Source: Diabrotica undecimpunctata (lineage: Eukaryota > Arthropoda > Insecta > Coleoptera > Chrysomelidae). From it: a DNA stretch of 64,000 nucleotides. Location: positions 76,896,935 to 76,960,934 of the forward strand of contig NC_092809.1 of the NCBI RefSeq assembly GCF_040954645.1, in the 5' to 3' direction. How positions within the stretch are numbered: the stretch's first letter is position 1; each line of letters starts with the position of its first letter. The notes below the pieces were generated by a model, which was not told the origin of the DNA, searched no databases, and saw nothing but the letters and a program-made list of their open reading frames with translations. The translations under genes were made by a program, and so were the position numbers. This document shows, one piece after another, positions 42,029-47,640 of the stretch.

Positions 42029-42300
42029 TGTTACGAACATGCTTTCTGCATGGCCCATGTAACGGTTGCATCTCGAAAAAGGCATCAAGAACATTCGCGA
42101 TGTATCTAGTGCGAGAGAGAACAACACGTCACGTAGGCGAATTAGAGGTGGGACTACCCCAGAAGATTAGAGAATATTACTTTTTGGTATATATATAAAT
42201 ATATATGTAACGATGTTATGAGTGAGTTTAGTTGTTAAGATATTACCGAACTGTAAACTTATAAATAAATATACTTATATAAATTCGAACTCTGCCTGAA
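42029..42300 (+). repeat. gypsy B 5' LTR
   Basis: Starts TGTTACGAACATGCTTTC; shares CATGGCCCATGTAACGGTTG and the following 60 bp with the downstream LTR, and later GTGAGTTTAGTTGTTAAG. It includes an insertion (ACACGTCACGTAGGCGAATT) absent from the 3' copy. The right limit is approximate; TGGTGTTGGG near 42302 may be the primer-binding site. Confidence 0.8.
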
Positions 42301-42336: not shown

Positions 42337-44985
42337 GCAGCCGGTCCCAAGCCCGGATAAAAGAGGAGGGATAGAGGAGTAACACTCTAAAAAAAAAACA
42401 GGGTTCAGCTGACCCGGCTGATAGCACCTGTGAGGGTCCCTGCCTGGGGTACAGGTGAAAACAGGTCAACGGTCTCGAGAGCAGAGGATGGCTGGAAAAG
42501 TCACAATGGTCAAGAGGTCGGAAGAACTAACAGCGTTTGATCCAGAATGGGCGGCTGAAGAAAAGGTCCTCCAAACGGGGGTTGTGGCGTTAGGAATTAG
42601 CAACCTAACACACAAGAAAAACATAAGGGTAAGAAGAACGAAAATCGCAAGATGAAAAAGCCAAATACGGAAACACACCCCCGGGTGGAAATCCACACCT
42701 CCCCATCGGACACGGGAAGTTCGGAAGACCCAAGTCTTATCAAAGCTCAACCAAAAATCGAAATGAAGAAAAGATAGAACATTCATATGAGCAACATGGA
42801 ATATACAAGGATGGAACAAAAACGCGACAGAAGTGATCAAAGAGTTTAAAGAAAGCAACATCGACATACTAGTAACAACAGAAACCAAAAAGAAAGGAAA
42901 TGGAACGGAAACAATAGAAGACCATATCCACTGCTGGAGCGGAGTTAATAAAGAATGTAGAGCAAAGGCAGGAGTGGGAATACTAATCAAAAATAAGTGG
43001 AAGAACAGGGTTAGAACATGGGAACCAATCAACGAGAGAATAATTAAAATGCATATAGACATATACGGTAAAGAGACAGTGATACTCGGAGTATATGCAC
43101 CAACAGACGATTCTCCGAGAGTAGAAAAAGAACATTTCACGGAACAACTCCAAAATCAAATAGAGCTAATTAAAAAGAACGTGGAGATGATTATAACAGG
43201 AGACCTTAACGGCAGAACCGGAAGGAAAGAAAACGATAGAAGTAGTGGGGAGATTTGGAGAGGATGAACAAAACGATAACGGAGAACGTCTGATTGAATT
43301 ATGCGAACTAAACAACCTAAAAATCACCAACGGATTCTTCAGACATAAAAATATTCATAAATATACATGGACGCAAGAAACACGAAAGCTGAAATCGATA
43401 ATAGACTACATAATAATCAAACAAGATACCATAATAAAGATCAAAGATGTGCGAGTCAAAAGAGGAGCAGAATGTGGAACGGACCATAGACTACTGACAT
43501 CAAAAATGGGCATTAATTGGAAACATAACAAGACCCCCTCCACAGAAGAACCGTTGAACACTATAAGAGAAAAACAATACAATATAGAACTACTCCAAAA
43601 ACAATCTATAAGAGAACTATACCAACAACGTCTAGACCAAAAATTAATAGAATTTAGATACGGCAAGCAGCATTCGAAGCCCTTGGGGAAAAAGAACATA
43701 TAACAAATAAACAGCACTATTATGAAATAAATGAACCAACAAAAAGAATAATTGAAGAAAAAAAGCAACTATACAGAAAATGGCTGACTACAAACAACGA
43801 TGAAGTTTATAAAGAATATAGAGAAAAAGATAGAGAAGTGAAAAAACAAATAACACAGCAAAAGAATGAAGAATGGGAAAGAATCTGCTTGAATATTGAA
43901 ACATATATAGGAGGTACAAGAACTTCGGAGTCATGGAAAGTACTGAGAGGATTGAAACAAAACTCAAGAGAAAAAATTAAATTGGGAAATATCCAGGACA
44001 AAGAATGGAAGGACTACTACAAGGAACTATTAACAGAACAAAGACCACAATTCATTGGAAAAGAAAACAGGCGAAGACGAAGCAGATTCCCACAACAAGA
44101 AATAGAAATAACAGATAGGGAAATGAGAACGGCCATAAAAGCAATCAAAAATAAGAAAACACCGGGACCTGGAGGCATCTCACCTGAGCTTATAAAATAC
44201 GGATCAAAAAAATTACACCGGATGATACAATGGATATTTCAGAAAGCCATAAATGGAGAACAGCTCCCAAAGGAATGGACGGCGGCATATATGACACCTA
44301 TATTTAAGAAAGGAGATAGAAAACGATGCGAAAACTACAGAGGAATAAGCGTAATATCATCAATAGGAAGATTATATGGGAAGATACTGCTAGAAAAGAT
44401 AGAGCAAGCGATAAAAGGCAAAATCGGGGAGGATCAGGCAGGCTTCACGGCAGGAAGATAATGCATAGACCACATATACACACTGGAGCAACTGTTGGAA
44501 AAGAAAAAAGCAAAAAATAGAGATATACACTTGGCATCTGTGGACCTGAGAAAGGCGTATGACTCTGTACCAAGGTCAGAACTATGGGAGGCAATGTACA
44601 AATTAGAAATACAGACGGAACTCATAGAAGCTACAAAAGCTCTGTATAAAGAAAATAAAGTGTCCATTAAAATGGGAACAAGAATCATAGGAGACTTCAC
44701 CACAACAAAAGGGCTCCTGCAGGCTTGTTCCACATCTCCAACCCTATTCAAAATATACTTAGAGAAAGCCTTGACTACATGGAAAAGAAAATGCGAAGGC
44801 ATGTGAGTACCGGTACGGAACGAATACCTATATACGTTAAGTTTTTCAGACGATCAAGTAGTGATTGCACAAGACCAAGACGACCTCAGCTACATGATGA
44901 AGAAACTACAAGAAGAATATACCAAGGCTGGCCTAGATATTAACCTCGCGAAAACAGAGTACCTATCTACAAGGCACAGACAACA
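42337..44985 (+). mobile_element. LINE D: APE-type LINE lying inside gypsy B, 3' end lost
   Basis: The 5' part begins with a GC-rich non-coding leader (GCCGGTCCCAAGCCCGGATA at about 42340, then CCCGGCTGATAGCACC) of the kind that starts certain insect LINEs. Endonuclease and RT follow. It stops abruptly at about 44985 in the RT thumb and is joined to gypsy gag. With the start of gag also missing, the simplest history is insertion into gypsy B followed by a deletion across the 3' junction. Confidence 0.75.
42791..44980 (+). pseudogene. pol: LINE D pol: endonuclease + RT, broken
   Basis: Endonuclease: ATWNIQGWNKNATEVIKE (42791), ILVTTETKKKG, AGVGILIKNKWKNR, VILGVYAPTDDS, IITGDLNGRTG, then a frameshift near 43245, GERLIELCELNNLKI and GTDHRLL (Ser of the usual SDH is Thr). 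RT after further breaks: KNKKTPGPGGISPELI (family PDG is PGG), FKKGDRKRCENYRGISV, GEDQAGFTAGR, an in-frame TAA (44460-44462), HLASVDLRKAYDSVPRSELW, GLLQACSTSPTLFKIYL, a stop, then SFSDDQVVIAQDQDDLSYMM (FSDD near 44850). At least five lesions. The C-terminus is missing at the junction with gypsy gag. Confidence 0.82.
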
Positions 44986-45330
44986 CATTGGAAGAAATTG
45001 ATGTAGATACCTTCATCAATGGGTTGAGAGACAGTGAACTACAGAACGCTTTACGACTAGCAAGACCGAAAGTTTTAGATGAAGCGCTCGCCATTGCCTT
45101 GGAAGACGAGACAGCTAGTCGAGCTTCACGGAGCTATCGAGTAAGAACCTCTGAAGAGAGCGACGTACAAAACGATAAACGTCTGGAGGAAATCGTACGG
45201 AAAGTAGTTCGTAACATGATGCCGAAGAGACGTGAACCCAGATGTTGGAATGTTAACGACGTAGGTCACATTCGTCGTAAATTGTATGAAAATAATACAA
45301 CAGTCAGAAAGCTAGAACAGAGATCGAACA
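44986..45330 (+). pseudogene. gag: gypsy B Gag C-terminus with degenerate zinc knuckle
   Basis: Reads VDTFINGLRDSELQNALRLA, EALAIALEDETASRASRSY, KVVRNMMPKRREPRCW, collinear with gypsy A gag residues near 350-415 and extending further. The CCHC knuckle at about 45240-45290 has kept its first Cys and the His, but the second and fourth ligands are Val and Leu (CWNV.. GHIRRKL). N-terminal gag is missing at the junction with LINE D. Confidence 0.8.
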
Positions 45331-46540
45331 CTGGGCTGGAAAAAGTCATTCAAATGCTGAGGCTCAGTCAAGACGGCCATACAGTGCAAATCGTAATTAT
45401 TGTCTTGAATTAGAAGAACGACTTTGCCCCGTGAGACGAACCACCGTCATTAATGATCAATGGCAGCCTCAACAGCTACAAGACGCTCAAGCAGATGATC
45501 CATGTATAAAAAGAGTATTGGATTGGATGCGTCGAAGTGAAAGACCTTCTTGGCAAGACATTAGTGCATGTAGTCCAGAAGTCACGTGTTACTGGAGCCA
45601 ATGGAATTGCCTAGTGCTGAAAGATGATCTTCTGTATAGAACCTTTCAGAACGATGATGGTACAGAAACTAAGCTTCAGTTGATTGTACCTAAAAATAAA
45701 GTGTCAGAAGTATTGCGTCAGTTGCATGACGGTGTATCAGGTGGACACTTTGGTATTACGAAGACTTTGCAAAAGGTTCGATAACGGTTCTATTGGGTGA
45801 ACTGTAAAGATGATGTAATAAGATGGTGCCGGAAATGTGAACTGTGTGCAACCAGTAATGGTCCAGTTGGTAAAAAGAGGGCACCCATGAAACAGTACAA
45901 TGTTGGTAGTCCTATGGAAAGAGTAGCAATCGACATTGCAGGTCCACTTCCAGAGACGAATGATGGAAATAAATATATCCTGGTATGGCTATACCAAATG
46001 GGGGGCCTATGCGATACCAAATCAAGAAGCTGCTACCGTTGCAGAGGTACTGGTTAAAGAATTCTTTAGCCGATTTGGTGTTCCCTTGGAGATCCACTTC
46101 GACCAAGGGCGAAACTTCGAATCAAACCTTTTCCAAAACGTATGTAAATTGATTGGTGTCAATAAGACCAGAACGACACCCCTGCATCCTCAATCAGATG
46201 GAATGGTCGAGAGGATGAACCGAACGATGGGTAAACACCTGTCCAAAGTTGTATCAAAACATCAAAAAGATTGGGACCAGCACATTCATTTATTCTTAAT
46301 GGTATACTGCTCGGCCGTGAATGAAACTACAGGCCAGACTCCAACCTGCCTGATGTTAGGTCGTGAAGTTCATTTGCCCTGCGACCTAGAGTTTGCCTGC
46401 AGACCTTCCGAAGAAAATGTTGCAAGCGAAGATTATGTCGACCGCCTGAAGTTAAGAATGAGCAACATTCATGAACTTGCTCGACAACACATCCAGTTAG
46501 TCAGTGACAGAATGAAAGATCAATAAGATTCTCGATGCAA
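45331..46540 (+). pseudogene. pol: gypsy B integrase (after deletion of PR-RT-RNase H)
   Basis: A KSHSNAEAQSRRPYSA block (about 45345-45395) is the end of RNase H, fused directly to the gag side by a deletion. Then comes QWQPQQLQDAQADDPCIKRV and the integrase zinc-binding HHCC segment (GGHFGITKTLQKVR, stop TAA 45782-45784, DVIRWCRKCELC). The catalytic core has VAIDIAGPLPET (first Asp), a frameshift at about 45980, EIHFDQGRNFES (second Asp) and DGMVERMNRTMGKH (Glu), so the D-D-E triad is all present. It ends QHIQLVSDRMKDQ with TAA at 46524-46526. The same frame continues into the next feature. Confidence 0.87.
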
Positions 46541-47414
46541 GAATGAAAGCTATAAAGTAGGTGATCTTGTTTGACTTTATAATCCACAACGTCGTCGTGG
46601 CTTGTCTCCTAAACTGCAAAGACAATGGGAGGGTCCGTATGAAATTAAAAAGAGAATAAATGACGTAATATACCGAATTAAGAAGTTGTCGAAAGGTAAA
46701 CCAAAAGTAGTTCACATAAATCGTCTTGCACCTTATGCTAGCTCAAATGAAATAGAAGAAGCCCGAACCCTTCAACATGAGATCAAAGATGACCGGCGAC
46801 CAAGCTTTAATGAGTTTATGTCAAATCACGCAGAGAGAAAGAGTGCTAGATTCGGCGTGACGACAGAAGTTCAGCAGGATCTTTTTAGTGTTCCGCATAA
46901 CGTCTCTCTAGCCCACTGTGTTGCCCAAGATCTCGAGATGACTAAAGGAATCTCATCTGTATTTTATAAGAAGTTCGGTCGTTTAGACGAGTTAAAAAAT
47001 CAGCAGCATAAAGTTGGAAGAGTACTGAGATTAGAAGATGGTCCTCGATCTTTGCTGTATATGGTGACCAGGAAGTCGTTTACAGACAGGGCAAGCTACG
47101 AGGATATATGGCGTGCTCTAACTAATTTGAAGAAAATCATATGCAATTATGACATCAAGAATTTGTACTCACCTAAGATAGTTCATCCACTAGATAATCT
47201 GGATTGGAAGATTGTCAGAAGCATGCTTGAAGTGATCTTCCGAGAAACCGGCGTAAGAATTACTGTGTGTTGCATTAATCCGAAGAGATCGTGTCCTTCA
47301 AAGACAGTGGACTGTTATTTCTTTCTGAGGGGTTCATGCAGAGCTGGAGAGTCCTGTAGATTCCGCCATCCTGGGCCTGCATATAGAGTTGCTGATCGGG
47401 ACGCTCAGATTTAA
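46527..47414 (+). CDS. pol: gypsy B Pol C-terminus: integrase tail + TARG1-like macro domain + CCCH zinc finger
   Basis: Same frame as integrase, read through TAA (46524) and TGA (46572-46574), then open for 270 codons from about 46602. Numbering from 46602: residues 2-46 are the standard Ty3/gypsy integrase tail (LQRQWEGPYEIKKRINDVIY, KPKVVHINRLAPY). Residues 85-225 match the macro domain of TARG1/OARD1, which removes ADP-ribose from proteins: QQDLFSVPHNVSLAHCV, FYKKFGRLDEL, YMVTRKSFTDRASYEDIWRA, PKIVHPLDNLDW, ITVCCI. The catalytic Asp of TARG1 (D125) aligns with D198. The catalytic Lys (K84) aligns with R157, with Lys next to it, and the glycine-rich GCG loop is VHP. Residues 238-256 form a CX7CX5CX3H zinc finger. 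TAA at 47412-47414 is 11 nt before the LTR. Enzyme activity is uncertain; ADP-ribose binding is plausible. Confidence 0.85.
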
Positions 47415-47425
47415 GAGGGGAGCAG
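47415..47425 (+). promoter_or_regulatory. gypsy B polypurine tract
   Basis: GAGGGGAGCAG directly before the 3' LTR TG, the expected position and composition of the plus-strand primer. Confidence 0.7.
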
Positions 47426-47640
47426 TGTTACGAACATGCTTTTGGCATGGCCCATGTAACGGTTGCATCTCGAAAAAGGCATCAAGAACATTCGCGATGT
47501 ATCGAGTGCGAGAGAAGAGTAGAAGAGTAGAAGATTCGAGAATAATACTTTTTGGTATATATATGTAACGAAGTTTGAGTGAGTTTAGTTGTTAAGTGTT
47601 GTTTATTTATTCTCGCTACACTACTATATACTTAATATAA
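47426..47640 (+). repeat. gypsy B 3' LTR
   Basis: Starts TGTTACGAACATGCTTTT and is collinear with 42029 onward through GTGAGTTTAGTTGTTAAG, with indels (it lacks the block near 42125-42165). Beyond about 47600 the two copies cannot be aligned by eye, so the right end is approximate. Confidence 0.8.

Follow-up and report, generated by a model that had tools for sequence, protein, structure and literature searches.

An integrase with a macro domain and a zinc finger

The DNA analysed here (the window) is a 64,000-nucleotide stretch of the Diabrotica undecimpunctata genome, contig NC_092809.1, positions 76,896,935 to 76,960,934 of the forward strand. It holds the remains of a Ty3/gypsy retrotransposon bounded by long terminal repeats (LTRs), and all of the element's features given below lie on the forward strand in window coordinates. 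In a 270-codon open reading frame (ORF) at 46602-47414, the tail of the Ty3/gypsy integrase leads into a macro domain of TARG1 type and then into a CCCH zinc finger. The integrase tail is a C-terminal module of GPY/F type (46632-46733, amino acids 11-44; Pfam Integrase_p58_C, PF22938, E = 2.3e-12). A linker (46734-46859), with an F..FM stretch that is conserved in most relatives by alignment and a modelled helix at amino acids 69-77 (block pLDDT, the predicted local distance difference test, 78-90), separates it from the macro domain (46860-47270, amino acids 87-223), which matches human TARG1/C6orf130 in the PDB (2eee/4j5r) at E = 1e-25. The finger follows at 47301-47372 (amino acids 234-257) and matches both the Pfam zf-CCCH model (PF00642, E = 5.2e-6; 26.7 bits against a cut-off of 20.5) and the CPSF4 finger in the PDB (E = 6e-6); its spacing, read from the sequence, is CX7CX5CX3H, within the CX7-8CX5CX3H range of CCCH fingers. 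The stop codon (47412-47414) is followed by 11 mostly purine nucleotides, a tract ending at 47425, and the 3' LTR begins at base 47426. An initial annotation of this DNA, made from the sequence alone, had proposed the macro domain behind the integrase, the finger with this spacing and the 11-nucleotide distance from stop codon to LTR, and all three hold.

The macro domain was identified by several routes. Profile searches supported the annotation as far as the zf-CCCH and PDB TARG1 matches are concerned, but the general Pfam Macro model gave no match in the window copy; the same model matches five of six macro sequences tested. A profile built from these six found TARG1 at E = 1e-44. AlphaFold2, given the window protein and 72 relatives, modelled most of the macro domain with block pLDDT of 87-98, and the best fold match of this model in Foldseek was 4j5s, TARG1 with ADP-ribose (rmsd 1.0 over 139 columns; TM 0.96 by target length), with DarG next; the predicted fold is thus that of TARG1. 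Sequence and predicted fold together make the identity of the domain certain, and chance similarity to TARG1 was rejected on the PDB, profile and fold matches. The window copy does not fit the published TARG1 sequence pattern, and for that reason we class it as TARG1-derived rather than as a canonical TARG1.

A young retrotransposon family

To be more than a local accident, the extension should recur in other copies of the element, and it does. In the 1.74 Gb genome of D. undecimpunctata, at least 142 copies of the tail were scored, 134 of them without a stop codon and each covering the full tail or all but one residue; this count is a lower bound biased towards intact copies, since scoring retained just the top-ranking ones among 7,458 first-look candidates. 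Twenty loci were then hand-picked from the 142, chiefly because their frames are long. In 19 of these 20 the stop codon is 11 nt away from the 3' LTR; LTR pairs are identical in 15 (one pair being partial), and in most of the 20 the LTRs are about 280 bp long and run from TGT to ACA, with the TG and CA ends expected of LTRs. An exact 4-bp target duplication flanks 17 of the 18 elements tested, in a procedure that allowed the LTR end to shift to a nearby TACA and from which loci L037 and L039 were excluded. Among the tail copies, open frames of 1414 codons and of 1857 codons are found repeatedly. In one family copy, examined with Pfam as six separate pieces, the domain order is SAP, gag, aspartyl protease, reverse transcriptase (RT; E = 3e-40), RNase H, H2C2, integrase core, p58_C and zf-CCCH, which includes the protease-RT-RNase H-integrase order of Ty3/gypsy pol genes. 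Based on the open frames, identical LTRs, target duplications and domain order, the tail belongs to an element that is young and has moved recently.

The recurrence of the tail across so many family copies rules out a local chimera, the case in which the extension would have been absent elsewhere in the family. It also bears on the suspicion that a neighbouring host OARD1 gene was fused to the element accidentally or in the course of gene prediction. NCBI does name two Diabrotica pieces "OARD1-like" (P0001 and P0004), but the tail is found at those 142 or more scored places, at its 11-nt distance from the LTR in 19 of the 20 fetched loci, and a gene with a TARG1 domain and no recognised retroelement sequence lies at a separate locus of the genome, L077. 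We regard such an artefact as having a negligible probability and reject the neighbouring host gene as an explanation; the annotation's view of the tail as retroelement cargo stands.

Two further features of the family were observed. All 17 exact target duplications, from loci L021-L040, have the form NTAN (ATAT, ATAA, ATAC, GTAT, TTAC, CTAC), and an element with a target preference of errantivirus type nevertheless carries an integrase tail of GPY/F type. The gag of the family copy at L034:2220-3560 starts with a SAP domain (Pfam E = 4e-6) and has weak matches of coiled-coil type; a SAP domain at the start of gag is, to our knowledge, unusual.

The window copy itself is broken. The annotation had described a pol frame running without a break from the integrase into the macro domain; the join is indeed in frame, but upstream of about 46575 the window copy is interrupted, with in-frame stops at 46524-46526 and 46572-46574, where other copies are unbroken. 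A remnant of the 5' LTR lies at 42029-42290, its first 90 nt 97% identical to those of the 3' LTR and its whole 79% identical to a family-copy LTR over 266 columns; the 3' LTR can be followed through these 90 nt (47426-47515), with no match to the family LTR beyond 47515. The primer-binding site region looks tRNA-Leu-like. The 3' part of gag (44977-45318; 93% identical by blastn to one family copy) is directly followed by the end of RNase H, the integrase, the macro domain and the finger, up to the 3' LTR (45320-47425; blastn over 45320-47515, 93.5% identical to one family copy). The protease-RT part expected between them was not found in the window copy by blastn against one family copy. Within the pol remnant are a partial H2C2 zinc-binding domain of the integrase (45686-45784; Pfam PF17921, E = 3e-8) and a partial integrase core (46005-46190; PF00665, E = 1.2e-7, slightly below the curated cut-off). 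At 42466-44806, in the stretch that separates the 5' LTR from what is left of gag, ORFs were seen by eye that resemble the endonuclease and RT of a non-LTR retrotransposon.

Selection on the extension

Ratios of non-synonymous to synonymous substitution (dN/dS) were calculated on open pieces only. In the 20 fetched loci, where pairs with very many amino-acid changes were dropped, the macro domain gave 0.08-0.09, as compared to 0.12 for RT (one subfamily only, there being no usable pair between subfamilies A and B), 0.06 for RNase H/H2C2 and 0.03-0.08 for the integrase (IN). In a larger set, 37 of 40 tails were open, and here the macro domain gave 0.09 when subfamilies were compared with each other and 0.14-0.24 otherwise, the upper values coming from comparisons with the broken window copy. 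Because L004 and L040, and likewise L006 and L038, are the same two loci, the 40 tails represent 38 loci, and group A of this set comprises six loci, not eight. With dN/dS near the RT and IN values, the macro domain is under purifying selection and, unlike the finger, is constrained about as strongly as the catalytic core.

Host sequences are transduced by retrotransposons, and the extension might be a host exon that was caught accidentally and is propagated although it does nothing for the element. The strength of purifying selection, comparable to that on RT and IN if only for open pieces, argues against such a history, as do carriers that form one clade across beetles and, probably, hemipterans. 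The dN/dS values led us to reject a neutral passenger, and we hold a functionless exon to be very improbable.

Relatives in other insects

Related tails were found in other beetles, so that the tail is conserved between species. A macro domain tied to an integrase, a CCCH finger or both is encoded in the beetles Exocentrus, Molorchus, Leptinotarsa, Acanthoscelides and Diabrotica virgifera, and most of the finger is present in models from Brassicogethes, Aromia and Callosobruchus. The CCCH-type finger occurs in nearly all relatives with enough sequence; the exception is P0009, which has integrase tail and macro domain without the finger. Macrosteles and Nilaparvata are hemipterans. Because their proteins named OARD1-like sit in the element clade described below, and because those of Macrosteles share, by eye, the linker behind the integrase tail, relatives of the family are probably present in hemipterans. 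A longer piece, from RNase H to the end, used as protein query returned only P0127 of D. virgifera among 187 candidates, and no full polyproteins elsewhere.

Phylogenies of the macro domain were built at two scales. The wider tree (122 rows: 120 of 127 database proteins and two family copies; P0007, P0060, P0070, P0094, P0107 and P0117 are among those left out for too short a macro match) contains a 26-row element clade with a support of 93 in the SH-like approximate likelihood ratio test (SH-aLRT). Smaller trees were made from 54 and 55 of the 122 rows, hand-picked after the wider tree, and the addition of L077 brought the number to 56; three short rows of the 26-row clade (P0026, P0038 and P0066) were dropped from these trees and from the residue counts below. 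In the 56-row tree the 23 element rows form one side of a branch supported at 99/96, apart from fly OARD1. Thirteen of the 23 show the IN tail, the CCCH motif or both directly; the remaining 10, which are shorter gene models, were assigned on the tree. Within this clade fall insect models named ADP-ribose glycohydrolase OARD1-like (P0001, P0004, P0013, P0014 and P0016); some insect "OARD1-like" gene models are thus retrotransposon tails, a pitfall for annotation.

Among the rows beside the element clade is L077, although the joining branch (87/93) is below the level that we starred. At L077:2233-4284, on the minus strand, Diabrotica has a 683-codon open frame with a canonical TARG1 domain (PDB E = 1e-36), a long N-terminus without a Pfam match and a C-terminal stretch of unrecognised kind; Pfam found no retroelement domain in it. 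It possibly represents the donor lineage. We infer that the macro domain of the element clade was captured once, from an insect TARG1-domain gene: the element rows form a single clade, with L077 among the rows beside it, although the deeper branching is weak.

Two fragments were noted outside this clade. P0064, from Rhamnusium bicolor, has an NADALSR stretch ahead of a TARG1 macro domain; NADALSR is typical of the end of RNase H. P0037 has a TARG1 macro domain followed by an integrase H2C2 match (E = 1e-4, below the cut-off). The two lie outside the element clade in all three trees, but the approximately unbiased (AU) test did not reject a common origin with it (p = 0.355 and 0.392). They suggest that in other elements the macro domain sits at a different point of pol, between RNase H and integrase; if so, such macro domains were recruited at more than one pol position.

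Active site and proposed function

The gaps and nicks that remain after integration activate PARP-type enzymes. We consider it an evenly poised proposal, drawn from sequence and from analogy, that the macro domain is an integrase-borne ADP-ribose module, situated where the integrase of chromoviruses has its chromodomain. A macro domain fused to the integrase would bind ADP-ribose that PARP-type enzymes have attached to target chromatin, or to DNA or RNA within the integration complex, and in most lineages would also remove it. It could guide the complex to marked sites, or remove marks that would otherwise hinder repair or lead to silencing of the inserted copy, and the element might benefit in integration, in repair or in escape from restriction; the CCCH finger probably binds element RNA or single-stranded cDNA. 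The annotation's idea that the element counters PARP responses would fit here as an inferred role. Overexpressed TARG1 is recruited to sites of DNA damage and strips ADP-ribose from protein, and L1 is silenced through mono-ADP-ribosylation of KAP1 by SIRT6, according to excerpts of PMC4695847; TARG1 also counters and reverses the ADP-ribosylation of DNA (PMC9967889, in excerpt).

The active site in most carriers favours this proposal. In TARG1, K84 is the nucleophile and D125 resolves the intermediate (excerpt of PMC6397177); a passage of PMC9967889 gives the same roles and describes an inactive K80A mutant of DarG as well as SCO6735, which has Gln at the Lys position. Outside Diabrotica, Lys-84 and Asp-125 are each kept in 17 of 17 element rows, which makes ADP-ribose hydrolysis plausible in most insect carriers there. 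Other pocket positions have changed: the GxG motif is G-x-G in nine and A-x-G in eight of these rows, Ser-35 is Ala in 12 of the 13 that have a letter there, and Arg stands at position 42 in 14 of 17, as compared to 2 of 33 rows outside the element clade. Gly-41 is replaced by Ser or Thr in 22 of all 23 element rows; it is Gly in 25 of the 33 others.

Several observations weigh against the proposal. In D. undecimpunctata, the Lys-84 position is Arg in all 40 tails (38 loci, the window included), and the full Lys-84/Asp-125 pair is lacking from these tails; GCG has become GHA in 39 of them, the window copy having VHP instead, and residue 125 is Asp in 32 (the window copy among them) and Glu in eight. 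The six Diabrotica rows of the tree agree, with Arg-84 in 6/6, His for C122 in 6/6 and Ala for G123 in 4/6. These changes, together with Ser-35 to Ala and Tyr-150 to Cys, could weaken even the binding of ADP-ribose. Of the 26 element rows, 9 fit the TARG1 pattern TKx(30,35)Px[IL]GxGxD, compared with 86 of the 96 other rows, and neither the window copy nor any of the six Diabrotica rows fits it; Lys and Asp alone are present in 19 of 26 and 93 of 96, respectively. The finger and the end of the tail are weakly constrained (dN/dS 0.28-1.25). A preference for NTAN, of a kind that an excerpt of PMC5408687 describes for errantiviruses only, is a choice of target by DNA sequence and needs no reading of ADP-ribose. 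Finally, if the element's protease frees the macro domain from the integrase, "integrase-borne" would be the wrong word. Because of Arg-84 and GHA, the Diabrotica module may bind ADP-ribose rather than erase it: hydrolysis would be weak or absent, an eraser is doubtful and a reader, mainly a binder, is likelier.

A protease cut would lead to the main rival, in which a released macro-CCCH protein acts alone, away from the integration site, against ADP-ribosylating restriction, its targets being host mono-ADP-ribosyltransferase (mono-ART) or PARP activity that modifies RNA, DNA or Gag. A linker of about 40 amino acids between p58_C and macro domain would leave room for such a cut, and the pairing of CCCH finger and macro domain mirrors host CCCH-PARP antiviral proteins such as ZAP and PARP12. 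The silencing of L1 through SIRT6 and KAP1 (PMC4695847) and the reversal of DNA ADP-ribosylation by TARG1 (PMC9967889), both as excerpted above, speak for it too. The cut in the tail is putative, however, and an eraser would be expected to keep the Lys, which Diabrotica has lost; we think this rival unlikely.

The macro domain could also be a folded spacer, or a nucleic-acid-binding platform for integrase assembly, in which ADP-ribose chemistry has been lost or is irrelevant. The changed pocket of Diabrotica, with dN/dS staying low, would fit a spacer, and the Mac3/SUD-M macrodomains bind G-quadruplexes (PMC6397177, in excerpt). The catalytic Lys and Asp, invariant in the other insects, are hard to explain for a spacer, and we judge this possibility distinctly unlikely.

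Returning to an ADP-ribose module on the integrase, its fullest version is that an insect retrotransposon lineage took up a host TARG1-domain gene and employs it, at the chromodomain position, for reading or erasing ADP-ribose at its integration sites, and that in Diabrotica the eraser turned reader. We put this forward tentatively, as a possibility short of an even chance. If it is true, the element would be the first retrotransposon known to us to carry an eraser or reader of ADP-ribosylation, and this would suggest that PARP/ART signalling is a real obstacle to, or guide for, the integration of animal retroelements. The natural fusion of integrase and macro domain offers a means to test the role of PARP/ART. 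The annotation knew of no retroelement with a macro domain; likewise, we found no description of a macro-domain, TARG1 or OARD1 retrotransposon in the open-licence literature searched, and a report elsewhere is possible.

Comparison with known systems

Alphaviruses and coronaviruses use macrodomains to counter host ADP-ribosylation, and the element resembles them in carrying a macro domain. Theirs belong to another macro class and are part of an RNA-virus replicase, and alphavirus macro domains were weaker fold matches. TARG1-like macro domains are also encoded at 36 viral loci in IMG/VR (L041-L076), which are not retroelements. These viral macro domains and that of the DarG antitoxin are on the same branch as that of the element, and DarG, as noted, was the second fold match. 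DarG differs in its carrier, the element being a retroelement, and the NCBIfam DarG equivalog model scored 17.8 bits against a cut-off of 250.

A further close counterpart is TARG1/OARD1/C6orf130, the ALC1-type macrodomain hydrolase, with which the element's macro domain agrees in sequence, profile and predicted fold; unlike TARG1, it is fused to an integrase, has Arg for Lys-84 in Diabrotica and has changes at Gly-41 and position 42. As to the integrase, a chromodomain at its C-terminus is the hallmark of chromoviruses in PMC3605345 and is placed there in PMC5408687 as well (both in excerpt). A Pfam scan of one family copy, at E up to 0.01, gave no chromodomain. The beetle element shares with the chromoviruses of Ty3/gypsy the order of pol domains and the position, behind the GPY/F module, of an extra domain of the chromatin-signal type; unlike theirs, this extra domain is a TARG1 macro domain with a CCCH finger, and it would represent a second kind of chromatin-signal domain added to the integrase C-terminus.
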